Virus record (IMG/VR): IMGVR_UViG_3300044911_003754
Coordinates: 1 to 38,210 of that record
Source of the DNA: a virus
Length of the DNA: 38,210 nucleotides
Reading direction: 5' to 3' (one strand)
Each line of letters starts with the position of its first letter. Within the stretch, counting starts at the first letter, position 1. This document shows, in pieces, positions 2,875 to 14,602 of the stretch. The position numbers and the translations under genes were made by a program. The notes beneath the pieces are model-generated. The model searched no databases. It was given only the letters and a program-made list of their open reading frames with translations, and was not told where the DNA came from.

Positions 2875-3655
2875 CGTTCGTCCCAGCACCCGCGCCCGAA
2901 CGCGACCCCCCCCCGGGGGTGTCCGCTCCCGCTCCCGCCGCGCTCACCGCGCCGCCCGATCCGCCGTCGCTACCCACCTGGCCGACCTCGATGATCGCTC
3001 CCGCCGTATCGTCCGCCGTATCAGCCACGCTCAAACCGTTGGAAATCAACACCTGCCCACCTGACTCAACATCAGCCGAGAGATTCCGCAGTTGCTCCGC
3101 ATACTGCCGGGCCAGGTCTTCGCCCACCGGCGCGACCCGGTGCTCGTGCGCGTGCAGATGCACCTGGGGGGCTCCGCTGATGCCCAATTTGTCCGCGCCG
3201 ATCCCCACCAGGATGGATTCCCCGCGCAGCTCCTGCGCTTCGTCCTTTGTCAGCCCGCGAGCGCGGGCTGCGTCCATCAAATCTTCCAGCCGCGCCGCGG
3301 CGGCCTCGGTCACCCGGCCAATCCGCCGTTCCACTCGTGTCTTTAGTGGTCGTATTAGGCCGCGGCCCTCTAGCGCCTCGATCACCGGGGGGATTGACTC
3401 GCGGGCGCAGTGGATCGCCTCGGCAATTTGTCGGTCACTGGCACCAGCCTCGACCATCGCGGCAATCAGCAGGCATCGCGACTCATCGCGCAGCATCCGA
3501 TCGCCCGAAAACCGCCCGCGCTTGGCGGTCGCAATCAGCCCGGAATCGCGCAAAACCGGCGCCGCGGAGAATAGCTCGGGTTGGCCCCGCAGGGCGTCGG
3601 CGATCTCGTGCAGGTCGAGCCGCTGCAGGTGTCCACTGTCCAGCCGGCCACTCAT
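2864..3655 (-). CDS. Hypothetical protein with winged-helix-like region
   Basis: This 263-aa protein has a central helical region. Residues about 55-110 (DRMLRDESRCLLIAAMVEAG, then ASDRQIAEAIHCARESIPPV) look like a winged-helix/HTH segment, followed by ALEGRGLIRPLKTRVERRIG, which would fit a wing. The last 60 residues are Gly/Ala/Ser-rich and likely disordered (GGGSRSGAGAGTNDGN). The start at 3655 forms an ATGA overlap with the excisionase-like gene. Context and fold suggest a DNA-binding regulator or replication accessory protein; family unknown. Confidence 0.65.
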   Translation of the reverse strand: MSGRLDSGHLQRLDLHEIADALRGQPELFSAAPVLRDSGLIATAKRGRFSGDRMLRDESRCLLIAAMVEAGASDRQIAEAIHCARESIPPVIEALEGRGLIRPLKTRVERRIGRVTEAAAARLEDLMDAARARGLTKDEAQELRGESILVGIGADKLGISGAPQVHLHAHEHRVAPVGEDLARQYAEQLRNLSADVESGGQVLISNGLSVADTADDTAGAIIEVGQVGSDGGSGGAVSAAGAGADTPGGGSRSGAGAGTNDGN

Positions 3656-3906
3656 CCGACAGCGTCCTCCGGCAAAAACGCCAGCGCCTGCCGCTGCTGG
3701 AACCGCTCCAGCTCAGCCAATGGGACGCGCACATCACCACCCGGCAGCACGATCGCGCCGGGAAAATGACCGCGGGCAATCCAGCGCCGGACCGTATGCC
3801 GGCACACCGCCAACGCCGCGGCCACCTGGGCGACCGTCAACAAGCGCAGCCGCGCCGGGATCTCCGGGGCGGCAACTGGCTTGGCGGTGGCGCGCTGGGA
3901 AGACAT
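3652..3906 (-). CDS. AlpA/excisionase-type HTH protein
   Basis: The 84-aa product contains RLLTVAQVAAALAVCRHTVRR followed by WIARGHFPGAIVLPGGDVRVP. This is the classic HTH_17/AlpA/excisionase arrangement: helix-turn-helix, then a short wing with a basic and glycine-rich turn. Small proteins of this family serve as Xis directionality factors or as transcriptional activators. GGAG at a spacing of 9 nt supports ATG 3906 rather than the upstream in-frame ATG at 3975. Its stop overlaps the next gene by ATGA. Because the window has a tyrosine integrase and an attP, it is the best excisionase candidate, although it lies about 4.5 kb away on the other strand. Confidence 0.8.
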   Translation of the reverse strand: MSSQRATAKPVAAPEIPARLRLLTVAQVAAALAVCRHTVRRWIARGHFPGAIVLPGGDVRVPLAELERFQQRQALAFLPEDAVG

Positions 3907-3928
3907 GAAAAAAGGCTCCGGGGCTGGA

Positions 3929-4156
3929 CTAAGTGAGGGAGTGAGAAAAGGCCTCAGCGGTCCGTTTCGTTGCATGCTGAGCGCAACCCGTTGCAGGTTG
4001 CCCGCTGTCGCCGGCCGAGCGGCCAGCCCCGGAAATTCGTGGAAAACGAGCCCGGCGAAGCCCGCCGCTGCTCCAATACAAAACCGACAGGTCCTTCACG
4101 CACGCCGCGCACAGATTCGGCCCCTCGTGATCCGCATGACACAGCCGGCAGATCAT
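3929..4156 (-). CDS. Small zinc-ribbon protein
   Basis: This 75-aa product begins MICRLCHADHEGPNLCAACV. Two CxxC pairs (C3/C6 and C16/C19) separated by nine residues form a probable zinc ribbon or treble-clef knuckle. The rest is basic and Arg-rich. The start overlaps the upstream stop by ATGA, which supports the gene although it is short. Small zinc-ribbon proteins of phages commonly bind DNA or RNA polymerase; the partner is not known here. Confidence 0.65.
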   Translation of the reverse strand: MICRLCHADHEGPNLCAACVKDLSVLYWSSGGLRRARFPRISGAGRSAGDSGQPATGCAQHATKRTAEAFSHSLT

Positions 4157-5077: not shown

Positions 5078-5103
5078 TTCCTGCTTTCCTGCCTTCCAAA
5101 TTT
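5078..5103 (+). repeat. Dispersed repeat family B
   Basis: TTCCTGCTTTCCTGCC followed by TTCCAAATT, located between the rightward RHH gene and the next promoter. The same sequence recurs at about eight other gene junctions in this window. Confidence 0.85.
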
Positions 5104-6840: not shown

Positions 6841-8358
6841 ATGAAGATCCCCGCCTACCCCGGCCACGGCTGGGAAATCACCTCCCGCACCGAGCCCCCC
6901 GAAGCGCGCCCGCTCAAGATCGCCTTCGCCAAACACCGCGCCGGCCGGCTCGACGGCCTGCTCCGCAAACACCCCGGCGCCGGTCCCGATGCCGCCGCGC
7001 CCTGGTATCTGCGCACCCCCACCAGTTGGCGCCGCGTGTCGCCCCTCGACGGGCCGCCCGTGTGGACGCCCGACGGCATCGTGGCCGCCCTCCGCAACGC
7101 CCTCGACCACCTCACCGCCACCAGCCAGGAGCGCGATCCGTTCGCCCGCGCCCGTGCCCGCGTCGCCTACCGGGCCAACCTCACCCTCGCCAAGCTGGCC
7201 GCCGATTGGCTCGAACTGGGAATGCCCGGCCTCGATCCCGACAGCGACGGCGCCGCCTTCGCCCCGCGTTCACCCGCCGCCCGCGCCGCCCTCCTGCCGT
7301 TCCTCGAAACCGCGTTGAAATGGTGGGGCAGCCACGATCCCGCCGCCGTCACGCAACGCACCATGCGCGACTACCACGCCAGCCGCTGCGCCCAGGTCGC
7401 CGCCGGCGCCCGCTCAGGGCAGGGGAAGGGCAGCCGCGCCGTGGACCTCGAGCTAAACGCCCTCGCCCAGCTCTGCCGTTGGGCCGTGGCCGACGAACGC
7501 CTCGGGCATAACCCGTTTGCCCAGCGCCCCCGCTTCCGCTCCTCGAAGTCCATCGTCCACTGCCACGCCAAGCAGCCCGACACCGACGAAGAACTTCACC
7601 AGCTTGCCCGCCATCTGTTCGGCCGGACCGCCGCCGTGGTCAGCGGCGCCCGGCTCCTGTTTGCGGCGATGACCGGATTGCGACCCGGCGAGCACGGTTT
7701 CCTGCAATGGAACGCTCAGGGCCCCAGCCCGAAACACCGGGCCCCGGGCGAACAATTCACCGACGCCAACGGCCGCCGGCTGCTGGCCGTGCAACGGGAG
7801 AAACACGGCATCAACCCCGGCGTGGAGATCCACGCGACGCTCGGCGACTTCCTCGACGTGTGGCGCGCCTACACCCTGGAGCGGTTCGGCGCCGGCTGCC
7901 CGTGGATGTTCCCGAACAACGCCGGCACCGGCCCGTGCGACAGCGACACCCTTAGCCGCGACCTGCTCACCGCGTGCGCCGCGCTGGGATTGCCCCCGCG
8001 CACCGGCCACGCCGCCCGCGCCTACTACGTCAGCGTGCGGCGCAGCCAGGGCCTGAACGACAGCGACATTGCCAGCCACCTCGGCCATCGGTCCGGCGAG
8101 AAGATCGTTGTCCGCATCTACGGCGACCCCGGCGACATCCGCGGCACCGGCCGCCTCGACTGGCTCCCCGCCGACGGCACCGCCCCCGCCTGGGAACTCC
8201 TGCGCCCGGCCGCCGCGTCCAACCTGGTCGCCTTCGCCCCCGCTGCTGATACGCTACAAGATACGTCCGACCGTATCACCAACCGTCCGCCAGAGTTCAC
8301 CAAAGTTCACACCGACCCCGCCGCGATACGGTCAAACGTATCAGCCGGCACCCCCTGA
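6841..8358 (+). CDS. int: Tyrosine recombinase / phage integrase
   Basis: This 505-aa site-specific recombinase would cut and join phage attP and host attB through a 3'-phosphotyrosine link. The catalytic set is visible: R281 in TGLRPGE, H390 and R393 in HAAR, H416 in LGHRSG and the nucleophile Y427 in RIYGD. Residues about 90-230 hold the core-binding domain (YHASRCAQVAAGA region), and a longer N-terminal part may bind arm sites. The tail after Y427 (about 80 residues) is longer than usual. The ATG at 6841 directly follows a family-A repeat; the frame is open upstream to 6475, but that extension is Arg/Pro-rich shadow sequence. GATACG repeats inside its 3' end and beyond, together with the tRNA core just downstream, make int-attP adjacency clear. 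It shows the phage is temperate. Confidence 0.95.
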   Translation: MKIPAYPGHGWEITSRTEPPEARPLKIAFAKHRAGRLDGLLRKHPGAGPDAAAPWYLRTPTSWRRVSPLDGPPVWTPDGIVAALRNALDHLTATSQERDPFARARARVAYRANLTLAKLAADWLELGMPGLDPDSDGAAFAPRSPAARAALLPFLETALKWWGSHDPAAVTQRTMRDYHASRCAQVAAGARSGQGKGSRAVDLELNALAQLCRWAVADERLGHNPFAQRPRFRSSKSIVHCHAKQPDTDEELHQLARHLFGRTAAVVSGARLLFAAMTGLRPGEHGFLQWNAQGPSPKHRAPGEQFTDANGRRLLAVQREKHGINPGVEIHATLGDFLDVWRAYTLERFGAGCPWMFPNNAGTGPCDSDTLSRDLLTACAALGLPPRTGHAARAYYVSVRRSQGLNDSDIASHLGHRSGEKIVVRIYGDPGDIRGTGRLDWLPADGTAPAWELLRPAAASNLVAFAPAADTLQDTSDRITNRPPEFTKVHTDPAAIRSNVSAGTP

Positions 8359-8366
8359 AAGCATAA

Positions 8367-8394
8367 GGGTTGCAACGGTTTCCCACTGCAACCC
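8367..8394. repeat. Inverted repeat after the integrase gene
   Basis: GGGTTGCA (8367-8374) and TGCAACCC (8387-8394) form a perfect 8-bp inverted repeat around a 12-nt loop, nine bases after the integrase stop. It could act as a weak terminator or as a recombination-protein site. No T-run follows. Confidence 0.6.
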
Positions 8395-8405
8395 CTTGCA
8401 AATCA

Positions 8406-8463
8406 TGGCGGAAGGGGAGGGATTCGAACCCCCGGATGGGTTACCCCATCTCCTGATTTCGAG
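8406..8463 (-). pseudogene. 3' half of a tRNA-Ser(CGA) gene: attachment-site core
   Basis: On the minus strand the sequence runs from the anticodon loop (CT-CGA-AA) through the 3' anticodon stem strand TCAGG, a long variable arm with stem ATGGG/CCCAT, a T arm with GTTCGAATC, the 3' acceptor strand and an encoded CCA end (complement of 8406-8408). The expected 5' anticodon strand (CCTGA) is absent; the sequence instead reads CCAGC and has no D arm or 5' acceptor. Identity therefore ends in the anticodon loop, as usual for phages that integrate into tRNA 3' halves and restore the gene. Confidence 0.85.
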
Positions 8464-8551
8464 GCTGGCGCGGTGGCGTTGTAATTGCCTGCACCGCAGG
8501 GCCAGACAAGGCCAGCGTGGGCCGTGATACGGGGCAAGATACGTCAGCGGC

Positions 8552-11500
8552 TTACTGTTGCGTGGGCAGGAATTTGGCCGACTTGGCTTCGGTCAGGAGC
8601 GTGTCGGCCAGCTTGGTCAGGTCGCGATAGACCGATTGCCGGGCGCGCAGGTCCTCGGTCTGCTCGGCGATGCGTTGGGCGAGGCGGACGCTTTCCATGC
8701 GGCCCTCCAGCATGTTGGCAAAGGCGCGCAGGTGCGGCGCCAGCTCCTTGTTGCGGGCCCGCGCCTGCCAGTAGAAATGCAGGTCGTAAAGCTCTGAAAT
8801 CTGCCGGTTCACCGCGGAGAACTCGCCGCCGCGCCGCAAGGCTTTGCCCACGACCGGTAGTTCCGAGGGTTCCTGCCGCGTGGATCCGGGACGCAAGCCC
8901 AGCATCTGCTCCAGGCCGGCCACGGTATCCGAGGCCGCCCCACCGCCGACGCCGCGAATGACGTGATCAACGCGGCGCGGGCTCACCTTGTCCGGGAAGG
9001 CCCGGCCGAGCGTCGTCGCCAGCCACGAGGTGTAGGGGCCCGACTGCTCGCCCGGCCGCAGGTCCACCTGGGCGCGGGGCACGATGGGCCGGTCGAAGAA
9101 GTCCATGTGGTTGCGCGCCTGCTCCCACCCGATCTTGCCCACCACCGGCAGGTCAAACGGGTTCACCGTGGCAAATACGTGACCGAAAGCCGCGTTGACC
9201 GCCTCGGGATTGTCCCGGTGCGCGGCATCCAGCAGCGCCTCGGGGATCACCGCAAAGGCGTTCTGCCACTCCGGCGGCCGGGGAATCTGATACACGTTCC
9301 CGTTGCCGTCCGGCACGTTCCAGTAAAGGTAACGCTCCCGCCAGGGCAGGGCCCGATACCAGTCCTCGTCCTTGTTCTGCCACCACGAATAGAGCGCCGG
9401 CACCGTGAACATGGAAAACCCATACAGCACCGCCTGCGCCGGCCGTTCCTGAAGCGCCCGCAGGAAACCCCGGGTGCCTTGGATGTTGGCGTTGAAGAAC
9501 GGGATGGCCTGCGACCACAGCTTCGCGTAGCTGCCGCCGGCCGAGAAGTCGGTGGTCACCCGCTTGGCCGCGATGGTCAGGGCCAGCGCCTGCTCGGGCG
9601 TCAACGGTTGGCCGGGCGACCAGCCCAGTTCCTTGGAGCGCAGCCGCAATTCCGCGATGCGCGGCACCGCCTCGGTGAAGCTCAGCAACTCGCGCAAGGT
9701 CTCAATCGGCGCCGTGACCCGCTTGAACACCTTGCCATGGAACAGCCCCTTGGCCTCGCGCCGGGCGAAACCAACGTCGCCGCCCAGCGGTTGCCCCGCC
9801 ATCACGCCCAGCCGGTCGAACAGGTCGCGATAGGCCGACGGCTGCCGAGTCAGGCCCGACTTCACCACGTCACCCAACGCCCCAAAGTATTCCGCCACCC
9901 GCCGCAGCGGATTGGCGCCGGCCGTGCTCTGCATCAGGAAGGTTTGCAGGTCGCGGGCCGGATTGGTGAACAGCGAGAAGGCCGGCCGCAAGCCCGTGGT
10001 GCCCAGCCGGAACGTCCGCGCCGGCACGCCGAGCAACAGGTCGGCCACCAGCGGCAGGCGGGCCGGCTGGATGCCTTCGAGCGCGCCAAACAGGTCCGGG
10101 CGGACGAAATACCACTTGGTTTCCCCGTTCACCTTGCGGGCCACGATGGGGTCCGAGCCCTTGGGCGAATCCGCGCCGGTGTAATATTCCAGCAGGGTGT
10201 CGGCGGGAATGTTCGTGGTGTCCACGCCCATGCCTTCGAGTTGCTGGCGCAGTTTCTCCACGTTCACCTGCTCCTTCACCTGCGCCCGCGGCACCTCCTC
10301 GATCATGCCGCCCATGCCCGGCTGCTGCGCTAGGTGAAAGATGGATTCCATCACCTGGTCGCGATGCGCCCGGGAAATCACCTGCTCGGCCGCCAGCAAG
10401 GTCTGCACGTCCAGCTCCTTCACCGGCAACGAACTGCCCCGCATCCGCCGCAAGGCCCCGCCCACGCCCTGATTCTCGCCGGGACGCGACTGGTTGGCGT
10501 CGAGCACACGGGCCAGCGGCACGTAATCCTTCGAGCCCGCCCGGATACGGCGAACCAACTCCGCGTTGGCCGGCGACGAGGCGCCCAGGTAGTCGAGCAC
10601 GCCATCCCACCACTCGTAGTAGCGGCTGGCGGCCAGTTGGAAGTCGGGCGTCTCCAGCGTCTGCCGCAGGTATTGCGCGTCGGCCAGCGAAATGCCCGGG
10701 TTCTTGTCCTGCCCCCAGCGTTCGATGGCCCGGCGGCTCCACAGGTAAGACCAAAAGTCCGCGGCGCGCCGGTTCCGGGCCAGCACCTGGTCGGCCCGCA
10801 AGCCCTTGGTCACCGGCGCCAAGGCTTCCCGCAGCGACCGGCCACCCGTGCGCTCGCCATTGAGGTTGATCATGGCCACGTCGGCCATGTAGGCGAGGAG
10901 GGCCCCAGCCTGCCCGCGCCGGGCGGTGGCAATCTGGAAGGGATCCTCGTCGGCCCGCAAGGCGCGGCCGGCAACCGCCTTGAAGCGTTTGCCCAGCGCC
11001 TCGTAGGGGGCAAACTGCTCCACAAAACCCTCGCGGCTGGCATACTTGCCCAGCTCGCGGCGCAGCCGGGCCAGCTTGCCCTCGGCCTCGCCGGTCTGGG
11101 CGCGCATCCGCTCCCGGGCACCCATGCCGCGCCACACGTCGATCTCGGCGCGGGCCTGCCGCATCGCGGCGGCCACCTCGGGAAAGGCGGGCAACACCGT
11201 GCCCTCCAGCCACGCCGTGGCGTTCGGGGCGCGCTTCGCGATGTCGTCGGTCGTCAGGTAATCCGACACCAGCTCGGCCCAGCCTTCGCCCGCGTAGCCG
11301 GCATTCGGCCGGGTCTTGCCATAGAGCGCCTTGCCCAGGGCGACCAGCTCGCGGCCGGCGGCCGGGGGAATACCGCGCACCTTGCCCACCGAAGTGGTCG
11401 CGTAAAGCGCGTCGGCCAGGGCGTGGGCCACCTCGTGGGCCGTGGTCGGCAGGTTCAGCCGGTCCCACATGCGGATCACGCGGCTCGGCGTGGTGTAGAC

Positions 11501-14500
11501 GCCGGCATACCGTTTCGACAGGCGGGCGCTGCGGATCGGCGAGGCATCGGCAATGCCGCGGGCCACGTCCACGATGGCCGACAGGCGGGCCTCGATCTTG
11601 GCCACGGTAGTGAAGCCCGGCACCAGCCGCTCCATGGTCACCACCATGCGCTTGCTCGGCACGGCCGTGGCGGTGCCCGCCGGCAACGCGGGCAGGCCAA
11701 ACTGTCCTTGAGCTTCGAGCGGGGAACCGGCGGCGCCGCCTTTCGCTTCCCCGACAGTATCTTCATTGATCCGCTCCCGCCCACCGATCAGCTCGGCCAT
11801 CTTCGCTGAACCGCCAGCCTTCTCAATGTTGGCCTCAGCCTTGGCAATTGCTCCGGCTCGCGTCTTGGCGTAGGTGTCACCCGGCCGCTGCCCGGTTGTG
11901 TATTCGTAGACCGCCCACGTTTTGCCATCGGCCGCCACCACATATTGGTGCGCCGGATCTGCTGGCAACGTCACCATTTGCCCGGACCGCTTCACCGCCG
12001 GATTGCCTGAAATTCGAGCCGGAATCAGGAAGTCCACCTTGCCACCCAACACCGGCTTGGACGGCCGGGCAGGTTCCGTTTGTGCAACTACACCTTCCTT
12101 CGGCGGCGCATTTAGTGCGGGCGGCGGTTCTGCTGGCGCCGCCACAGGAGGCGGCTCCGGCGGCAGACTATTCCTCAATCGGACGGCCGCCTCGGCCAAC
12201 AGCTCACGCTGTTTAGGTTCGATCTCCAGCTCCATGTCTTCAGCCTGCCGCTGCAACACGTCGGCCGCCCGGCGGTCGCCATATACCTTGCGGGCATCCT
12301 CAATGACGCGGACCACATCCATCTTGGCCGCCCGCGCCACGGGCGCCTTGCCCGAAACGGACGCCCCCGTTTCCAACCGCTTGGCCCGGCCCAGCAACTG
12401 GCCCAACTGTTCCTTGGTGTTCCAGACGGTCAACGTGCCATCCCCGGGAATCTCGATGGTGACCTTCTGCCTCGGGTTGTCGGTGTCCTGCATTGTCGGC
12501 GCCGCCTCCACCGCCTTCCCTAGCTCACCGATCAGCTTGGCCTTGGCGTCCTTGGCATCGGTCACCAGCGGCTTGCCCTTGCCAGCCCGGCCGCGCTTCA
12601 CCACCTCACTGACAAACCGCAGGTTATCCATGCCGCCCTGCATGGCCGGCGCCGCCGCGGCGGGAGCCTGCGCCGGCTCAGTCGGCTCTGCCGGTCGCAC
12701 CTCGGCCGGCTTGGTCATGGATTCCGCGGCCGGCACAGCGGGAGCTTCAGCACTCGCCACACCCGCGGCGCGGCGCAACACCTCAGCTTCGGCAAATCCG
12801 CCATGCGTGAAGGCGAATTGACCGCCCACCGGGTCGAACTTGATGGCCTTGGCCTTGCGATACTCGGCCAGCGCCGTGGTTGCCTGCTCTTGCGTCAGTC
12901 CGGCCGTTTGCATGGCAAACTCCAGGAACCGATCCTCGGCGTTGACCATGCGTTGCGCGACCGACCGGGTGCCGGGCAATGTCTCCGGCGTCTGCTGTTT
13001 CACCCGCCGCCCCATGCCCACCACGTCGATGCCTTCCGCCGGCACGTTCTCGCCCACCCCTTGGTCGGTCGCAAACGGGTCGAGCGGGCGCCCCGGCTCC
13101 GCATTCGGAATTCGGAACTCGCCCCTCGGCACTGCCGCGGCGCGGCCGGGCGGCTGTTCCTTTGGCAACGTCCGGGCCCGGCGAACCAATTCCGGCGGCA
13201 GCACAAATTCACTGCGCGGCTGAAGGCTGTGCTTGCGCGCCCCCGGCACATTCACAACCCGGTAGGCTTCCAAGTCCGCCTCGGGCACATCGACATAAAT
13301 GATCCGCCCATCGGGATCGTGGGCGGCTCTGGCGTAGGGCTTGGCCACGTCCGGGTCGGGCGTGAACCAGCGCCCCCGGAATTCGGGCGGCTCAAACGTG
13401 GCCCGATCAATTTCACCGGAACGCCCCCACGACGGCGGCCCGGGTTTGGTTTCTCCGCGGTAGAGTCGAACCATCTTTGGCGCCTCAAACCCCGGCCCGA
13501 CCTCCCCCAGCGGCGCCTCGCGGCGGAACAGCGGCCCGTCTCCCTGCTCCCCGCTCCCTGCTTCGGGCCGCGTGGCGGCCAGCGCAATCTCGTCCGCGCT
13601 CTGGCGCAGGGCCTCGATCACCTCGGGGTGGTTGGCGGCATCGCGCAGGGCCACGGCCACGTGCTCGGCCGGGCTCAGCCTGGCCTGCGTCTCGCTCGGC
13701 AGGGACCGCCGGAAACCCGGCACGTCGAGCGCCAGAAAGGCGGTGTTGGCCACGAGGTTGCGCAGGATGGCTTCCTTGCGCTCCTGCGGCGGAAGGGCCG
13801 CGTATTCCGGCAGGCGCAAGCCTTCCATGAACACCTGCACGGCACCCTGCGAGCCGAGCACTTCCACCGCCTTCTGCGTGGCCGTGGCCTGGGGCGACAT
13901 GAGCCCGCGCTGGATCAGTTGCCGGTTCACGCCCACGGCCAGCGACTTGCCCGCCTGGGCGACGGCCGGAATCGCGGCGCCCATCACGCCGGCCTGGAAC
14001 GCGGCCTGCGGATCACCCGTCTCGCCGTAGGTCTGCGCGGCCATGGGCCCGCCGAACGCGGCCATGGGCGGCACACCGTAGGCCGACAACGCCATGCTGG
14101 CGCCGAGCACGGGAGCGGACCGGCCCACGTCCTGCAAACCTTGGGCGACGGGCCCGGCGGGGTCGAGGGAAGTCAGGCCGGTGACCTTGCGCACGTCCTC
14201 GGCCAGCAGATTGCCGGCGGTGGAGAACACCTTACCGGCCTCGCGCAGCGGTTGGCGCAGCATGAGGCTGGCGGCCTCGGGAACGGCGGCGGCCCACTCG
14301 GCGGCGGTGCCCCCGGTGAGCGGCTGGATCACCTCGCGGTCCACGGCGCGGGCGGCGTCAAACCCCACCTCGTGCGCGGCGTTGATCACCCCCTCCAACT
14401 GGCCGGAGAACCCGGACCGGGCGGCGGTGTCTTGGTTGTTGGCCTGCATCTGGCCGAACGCCTCGAAGTTGGCGGCGAACTTAGCGTCGCGCTCCAGGTA

Positions 14501-14602
14501 GGCCGGGAACTTGGTGCCAATGGCGAGGGTCAGCTTGTCGTCGGGCACGTCCGCATATTGCGGATACTTGGCGCGCACCCGGTCAATGAGGCGGTCACTC
14601 AT
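8552..14602 (-). CDS. Giant polyvalent internal virion protein (ART-like, HEXXH peptidase, LPD38-like)
   Basis: At 2,016 residues this is by far the largest product, read last in the late operon. Visible parts, in order: an N-terminal helical region (1-370); an ADP-ribosyltransferase-like segment from about 377 (MVRLYRGE, then GRWFTPDPDVAKPYAR); Ala/Pro linkers; a HEVAH zinc-binding motif at 1056-1060 with a likely third ligand E1110 in GWAELVSDY, giving a gluzincin-like metallopeptidase; and a helical C-terminal part with FFNANIQGTRGFLRA around 1700, which resembles the LPD38 domain of phage polyvalent proteins. Such proteins are packaged and injected with the DNA and act on the host on entry. 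The start at 14602 is 3 nt after the preceding stop. A heptamer repeat (13540-13564) lies in the ART-proximal part. Domain names are from recall, not from a search. Confidence 0.85.
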   Translation of the reverse strand: MSDRLIDRVRAKYPQYADVPDDKLTLAIGTKFPAYLERDAKFAANFEAFGQMQANNQDTAARSGFSGQLEGVINAAHEVGFDAARAVDREVIQPLTGGTAAEWAAAVPEAASLMLRQPLREAGKVFSTAGNLLAEDVRKVTGLTSLDPAGPVAQGLQDVGRSAPVLGASMALSAYGVPPMAAFGGPMAAQTYGETGDPQAAFQAGVMGAAIPAVAQAGKSLAVGVNRQLIQRGLMSPQATATQKAVEVLGSQGAVQVFMEGLRLPEYAALPPQERKEAILRNLVANTAFLALDVPGFRRSLPSETQARLSPAEHVAVALRDAANHPEVIEALRQSADEIALAATRPEAGSGEQGDGPLFRREAPLGEVGPGFEAPKMVRLYRGETKPGPPSWGRSGEIDRATFEPPEFRGRWFTPDPDVAKPYARAAHDPDGRIIYVDVPEADLEAYRVVNVPGARKHSLQPRSEFVLPPELVRRARTLPKEQPPGRAAAVPRGEFRIPNAEPGRPLDPFATDQGVGENVPAEGIDVVGMGRRVKQQTPETLPGTRSVAQRMVNAEDRFLEFAMQTAGLTQEQATTALAEYRKAKAIKFDPVGGQFAFTHGGFAEAEVLRRAAGVASAEAPAVPAAESMTKPAEVRPAEPTEPAQAPAAAAPAMQGGMDNLRFVSEVVKRGRAGKGKPLVTDAKDAKAKLIGELGKAVEAAPTMQDTDNPRQKVTIEIPGDGTLTVWNTKEQLGQLLGRAKRLETGASVSGKAPVARAAKMDVVRVIEDARKVYGDRRAADVLQRQAEDMELEIEPKQRELLAEAAVRLRNSLPPEPPPVAAPAEPPPALNAPPKEGVVAQTEPARPSKPVLGGKVDFLIPARISGNPAVKRSGQMVTLPADPAHQYVVAADGKTWAVYEYTTGQRPGDTYAKTRAGAIAKAEANIEKAGGSAKMAELIGGRERINEDTVGEAKGGAAGSPLEAQGQFGLPALPAGTATAVPSKRMVVTMERLVPGFTTVAKIEARLSAIVDVARGIADASPIRSARLSKRYAGVYTTPSRVIRMWDRLNLPTTAHEVAHALADALYATTSVGKVRGIPPAAGRELVALGKALYGKTRPNAGYAGEGWAELVSDYLTTDDIAKRAPNATAWLEGTVLPAFPEVAAAMRQARAEIDVWRGMGARERMRAQTGEAEGKLARLRRELGKYASREGFVEQFAPYEALGKRFKAVAGRALRADEDPFQIATARRGQAGALLAYMADVAMINLNGERTGGRSLREALAPVTKGLRADQVLARNRRAADFWSYLWSRRAIERWGQDKNPGISLADAQYLRQTLETPDFQLAASRYYEWWDGVLDYLGASSPANAELVRRIRAGSKDYVPLARVLDANQSRPGENQGVGGALRRMRGSSLPVKELDVQTLLAAEQVISRAHRDQVMESIFHLAQQPGMGGMIEEVPRAQVKEQVNVEKLRQQLEGMGVDTTNIPADTLLEYYTGADSPKGSDPIVARKVNGETKWYFVRPDLFGALEGIQPARLPLVADLLLGVPARTFRLGTTGLRPAFSLFTNPARDLQTFLMQSTAGANPLRRVAEYFGALGDVVKSGLTRQPSAYRDLFDRLGVMAGQPLGGDVGFARREAKGLFHGKVFKRVTAPIETLRELLSFTEAVPRIAELRLRSKELGWSPGQPLTPEQALALTIAAKRVTTDFSAGGSYAKLWSQAIPFFNANIQGTRGFLRALQERPAQAVLYGFSMFTVPALYSWWQNKDEDWYRALPWRERYLYWNVPDGNGNVYQIPRPPEWQNAFAVIPEALLDAAHRDNPEAVNAAFGHVFATVNPFDLPVVGKIGWEQARNHMDFFDRPIVPRAQVDLRPGEQSGPYTSWLATTLGRAFPDKVSPRRVDHVIRGVGGGAASDTVAGLEQMLGLRPGSTRQEPSELPVVGKALRRGGEFSAVNRQISELYDLHFYWQARARNKELAPHLRAFANMLEGRMESVRLAQRIAEQTEDLRARQSVYRDLTKLADTLLTEAKSAKFLPTQQ
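13540..13564. repeat. Heptanucleotide repeat in the giant gene
   Basis: CTCCCTG, CTCCCCG, CTCCCTG and CTTC follow each other with period 7. On the coding strand this gives the GSGEQGDG stretch just before the ART-like region. It is the same heptamer type as at 150-173. A change of one unit would truncate the 2,016-aa protein. Confidence 0.75.

Follow-up and report, generated by a model that had tools for sequence, protein, structure and literature searches.

We identified a phage attachment site (attP) in a 38,210-nt viral sequence (the window; IMG/VR record IMGVR_UViG_3300044911_003754) that very probably belongs to a temperate phage of the Limisphaerales, in which a lambda-type integrase would bridge putative GATACG arm-type sites and a 58-bp core, recombining into a host tRNA-Ser(CGA) gene. 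The likely host group, within the Verrucomicrobiota, is little known; its virus probably inserts into the serine-tRNA gene, rebuilding it in the process. The tRNA-Ser(CGA) core and the seven copies of GATACG around it are confirmed as real. The features considered herein, including some retained in two related contigs (G001 and G002), are as follows.

3005..3022, minus strand: second GATACG pair, 12-bp step, 5.2 kb from attP, in a coding region and kept in G002
3652..3975, minus strand: probable excisionase (recombination directionality factor, RDF), by family match to HTH_17 / TIGR01764
6841..8358, plus strand: lambda-type tyrosine integrase gene (int), PHROG integrase, E 2e-16
8248..8265, plus strand: putative left arm-type pair, GATACG-N6-GATACG, within the 3′ coding end of int
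8272..8277, minus strand: additional inverted site on the left, 12 bp from 8260
8325..8342, no single strand: extra left pair, inverted orientation, 12-bp step
8406..8463, minus strand: 58-bp common core of attP, the 3′ half of tRNA-Ser(CGA), its edges being the edges of identity to host tRNA genes
8526..8543, plus strand: putative right arm-type pair, GATACG-N6-GATACG, oriented like the left pair
8552..14602, minus strand: polyvalent protein (LPD38), 2016 aa, the right boundary of attP and a neighbour conserved in G001 and G002

The tRNA core and its host gene

The core started 47 bp beyond the int stop codon (stop at 8358) and, when aligned with host tRNA genes, extended from anticodon-loop base 32, the first base of the loop, to the CCA. 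No complete tRNA was called in the window by ARAGORN, as expected because the core is only a 3′ half. The exact core 57-mer was absent from the 84,980 species genomes of genome_contigs, and a relaxed tRNA pattern, in which CGA was not presupposed, pointed to Verrucomicrobiota subdivision 3. Specifically, in the order to which L031 belongs (MAGs titled Limisphaerales and Pedosphaera are also members), six of 320 genomes had three or fewer mismatches over 56 core bases; three of the six had one mismatch, and all six genes were called as tRNA-Ser(CGA) by ARAGORN. An even draw of 388 genomes from across the phylum gave no core match, and only the order Limisphaerales (Verrucomicrobiota) yielded host tRNA-Ser(CGA) genes identical to the core at 55 of the 56 searched bases. 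These full-length genes bear out the initial annotation, which had named 8406-8463 as the 3′ half of a tRNA-Ser(CGA); its prediction that a host tRNA-Ser would share the core held for Limisphaerales, but one mismatch remains and the match is not exact. Additionally, a chimera built in silico from the host 5′ half and the phage 3′ half folded and was called as tRNA-Ser(CGA).

A related prophage beside such a tRNA, also part of the check first proposed, was recovered only as a distant cousin. In a Limisphaerales genome (L148, G088:C196), an integrase with 37% identity followed an intact tRNA-Ser(CGA), and CATGAGTCCAC recurred there with a 12-bp step; the contig had no second core copy, and none closer was found. 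No host genome with the exact core or the prophage of the window was found in genome_contigs or, by major capsid protein, among the 320 Limisphaerales genomes, where a search run without a positive control gave no match at E 1e-20.

Independent support for the host came from two intergenic repeat families common to the phages and to two bacterial genomes. The phage repeats TTCCTGCTTTCCTGCCTTCCAAATT and GCGAAGACGCGAAGGCGCGAAG were also present in G287 and G288, both of which are core-matching genomes, while TTCCTGCTTTCCTGCCTTCCAAATT was absent from eight other bacterial genomes tested, two of which had weaker matches to GCGAAGACGCGAAGGCGCGAAG. The uncultivated phage group is assigned to Limisphaerales by two independent sequence signals, and its integration gene is named. 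The two intergenic repeat families (TTCCTGCTTTCCTGCC... and GCGAAGACGCG...) had about 19 matches in the window, at 5078, 6514, 16022, 19961, 23436, 31094, 37064 and other positions, and formed an inverted composite in G288 (C134:1465-1598), possibly a host-derived palindromic element.

An attachment site in the circular phage form

Two IMG/VR metagenome contigs, G001 (36,444 bp) and G002 (43,857 bp), carried the same region at about 93-98% identity. Both had the gene order int, core, 2016-aa gene, and in both the core was identical and all seven GATACG copies were retained. The ends of G002 overlapped by 431 bp at 96%, closing its map at about 43.4 kb, a closure at the population level with no perfect end repeat in virus records whose ends are listed as 'linear'; G001 and the window both ran through the G002 end join. 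Since the core lies inside this circular map, the site is read as attP and not as a prophage junction, which upholds the proposal that the sequence is the unintegrated form with phage genes on both sides. That the join at the core is a tandem-prophage or assembly junction merely containing a tRNA fragment is hardly credible: the window has no end repeats and is ~4.7 kb short relative to G002, but G001 and G002 share the join, the sequence on both sides of it is conserved, and the G002 map is circular. The refutation that had been envisaged, that the flanks would prove to be separate prophages or an assembly join, is contradicted by that shared join. We rejected a direct joining of the window's own ends, where a frame spans the join but the ~4.7 kb present there in G002 is missing. 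The phage that encodes the 2016-aa LPD38 polyvalent protein also has an SU10-like capsid protein.

GATACG sites around the core

Exact GATACG copies started at 8248 (+), 8260 (+), 8272 (-), 8325 (+), 8337 (-), 8526 (+), and 8538 (+), that is, five left of the core, within the reading frame at the int 3′ end, and two right of it, precisely the division first reported. Within each cluster (8248/8260/8272, 8325/8337, and 8526/8538) the steps were exactly 12 bp; neither these steps nor the location of the left five inside the int frame featured in the initial annotation. The window as a whole had 15 copies, as against 6.6 ± 2.5 in shuffled sequences. When every hexamer was scored in 296-bp windows, the seven copies in 296 bp (Poisson p 5e-11) formed the most extreme cluster of any hexamer, and the best hexamer cluster across 30 second-order Markov control sequences reached only 2e-8. 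The two direct pairs were embedded in 21-nt repeats (TGATACGnnnCAAGATACGTC) that were 86% alike. Over a 60-nt block of the right arm, 13 positions differed between the window and G001/G002, none of them inside either hexamer (p 0.04).

GATACG is best read as a putative integrase arm-type site, since relatives carry paired sites on both sides of the core; the initial annotation had offered arm-type integrase or Xis sites, and this conserved architecture of same-sequence pairs favours the former. The main rival also takes the core as attP, with GATACG marking excisionase (RDF) sites instead. Direct repeats of 6 bp, separated by roughly one helix turn, can serve as RDF sites, as for Apl of phage 186 (PMC7498355), and the HTH protein at 3652-3975, of an excisionase family, is likely an excisionase, a role suggested by its family match. 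Nonetheless, we consider this reading unlikely: the spacing is 12 bp here as opposed to 10-11 for Apl, two of the extra copies are inverted, and GATACG lies on both arms in the same orientation, like the same-sequence pairs of four relatives. The presence of the motif on both arms favours the integrase over the excisionase as its binder.

A plain 2+2 layout leaves three left sites unaccounted for, two of which are inverted, and these count against the arm-site explanation. These and the 3005/3017 pair could instead be a regulatory array, through which, for example, the integrase also acts on expression. In Cluster J mycobacteriophages, inverted arm-like sites are also present, at the start of int (PMC3706429), and the 3005 pair is retained in G002; however, the extra sites here are at the int 3′ end and the 3005 pair is inside coding sequence, and we doubt that such an array is present.

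The integrase

The int product had no match in Pfam or NCBIfam, and PHROGs names it an integrase. R281, K321, R393, and Y427 were invariant in a 14-sequence alignment (A3), and H390 nearly so, such that a tyrosine integrase with R-K-H-R-Y catalytic residues adjoins the core. A PDB sequence search with A2 gave no match, while the best PDB match to the predicted fold was lambda Int (E 8e-9). The N-terminus of the window integrase was poorly modelled, with residues 1-76 below pLDDT 50. In the relative L173, a strand-rich N-terminal domain plus helix was modelled confidently, and the predicted fold was three-domain and lambda-like; it aligned with lambda Int from residue 4-8, that is, from the N-domain on (Z 17), with a high whole-chain rmsd.

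Relatives with other motifs and other tRNAs

No integrase relative was found in the phage record collection, and the plasmid record collection gave nothing beyond short matches of ~80% to the core region. An integrase profile search exposed 16 more distant viral relatives, several of which carried other tRNA 3′ halves (Lys, Arg, Val, and Met, the anticodon loop having been inspected). At five of nine non-redundant attP sites (window, L171, L172, L173, and L177), one hexamer occurred as a pair, spaced 11-13 bp, both left and right of the core. This 2+2 layout occurred around 17 of 11,697 random centres (0.15%), a comparison for which the p value is descriptive, as the hexamers, the 250-bp flanks, and the 11-13 bp range were chosen after seeing the pairs. 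The other four sites (L164, L169, L174, and L175) did not show the layout at that threshold; in L164/L165 a single heptamer, GGCTGCA, recurred at steps of 10-24 bp. Direct tandem matches of at least 7 bp at a 12-bp offset, counted up to 250 bp from the core or tRNA, were found at 8 of 14 loci versus 11.7% of background windows. In integrated relatives, a repeat with a 12-bp step adjoined tRNA-Ser(CGA) in L148 and tRNA-Arg in L144, L145, and L133.

Each site with the 2+2 layout used one motif of its own in both pairs: GATACG in the window and L171, and GTACAC, ATGGTA, and CTGACT in the other three. L171 shares GATACG with the window, but its core is from tRNA-Lys. Separately, in L171 (3-1130) the int frame continues through the left arm sites into the tRNA core. 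A bolder proposal, which we advance tentatively and regard as rather improbable, is that these integrases form an undescribed family in which a paired 12-bp layout is fixed but the motif and the tRNA target vary independently of each other; the extra inverted sites would lend Int a second, regulatory role. As a rule, same-sequence pairs about 12 bp apart that flank a tRNA half beside int could find related attP sites missed by family libraries.

Proposed mechanism

In our preferred reading, the integrase would bridge the arm-type GATACG sites, to which it is presumed to bind, and the 58-bp core. Recombination between the core and the host tRNA-Ser(CGA) gene, in which strand exchange is probably located in the anticodon loop, would put the phage-borne 3′ half in place of the displaced host 3′ half and so keep the tRNA functional. 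In the integrated state, int and the five-site arm would adjoin the rebuilt tRNA, and the two-site arm would lie at the opposite end, next to the displaced host fragment.

Comparison with known systems

The attP design is of a known type, and the target gene, likely host order, and repeated site layout can be read, provisionally, from sequence alone. The core, paired sites, and integrase fit a lambda-like Int that acts on a tRNA core through paired arm sites, as in Cluster J mycobacteriophages (Omega and BAKA; PMC3706429), in which attP is also on the int 3′ side. The 44-bp core of those phages has its left end in the tRNA anticodon loop, where the window core also starts, and, as in the window, direct arm-type pairs (P1/P2 and P3/P4) are accompanied by inverted arm-like sites; the pairs are imperfect direct repeats related to one consensus (PMC3706429). 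In contrast, Cluster J phages use a mycobacterial tRNA-Leu and the arm consensus TGCATAC (PMC3706429), while the window has tRNA-Ser(CGA), GATACG, and five left sites that lie within the int frame. Lambda Int is the best structural match and shares the tyrosine recombinase catalytic residues, and its N-domain region has a modelled counterpart in L173; the tRNA target and 12-bp steps set the window apart from lambda attP. Finally, K4 phages such as Fionnbharth, known for tRNA-dependent lysogeny, also have a tRNA target and putative arm-site pairs around the core, but they have a 10-bp core and depend on a tRNA that the phage itself provides (PMC10865867), whereas the 58-bp core of the window would restore that of the host.
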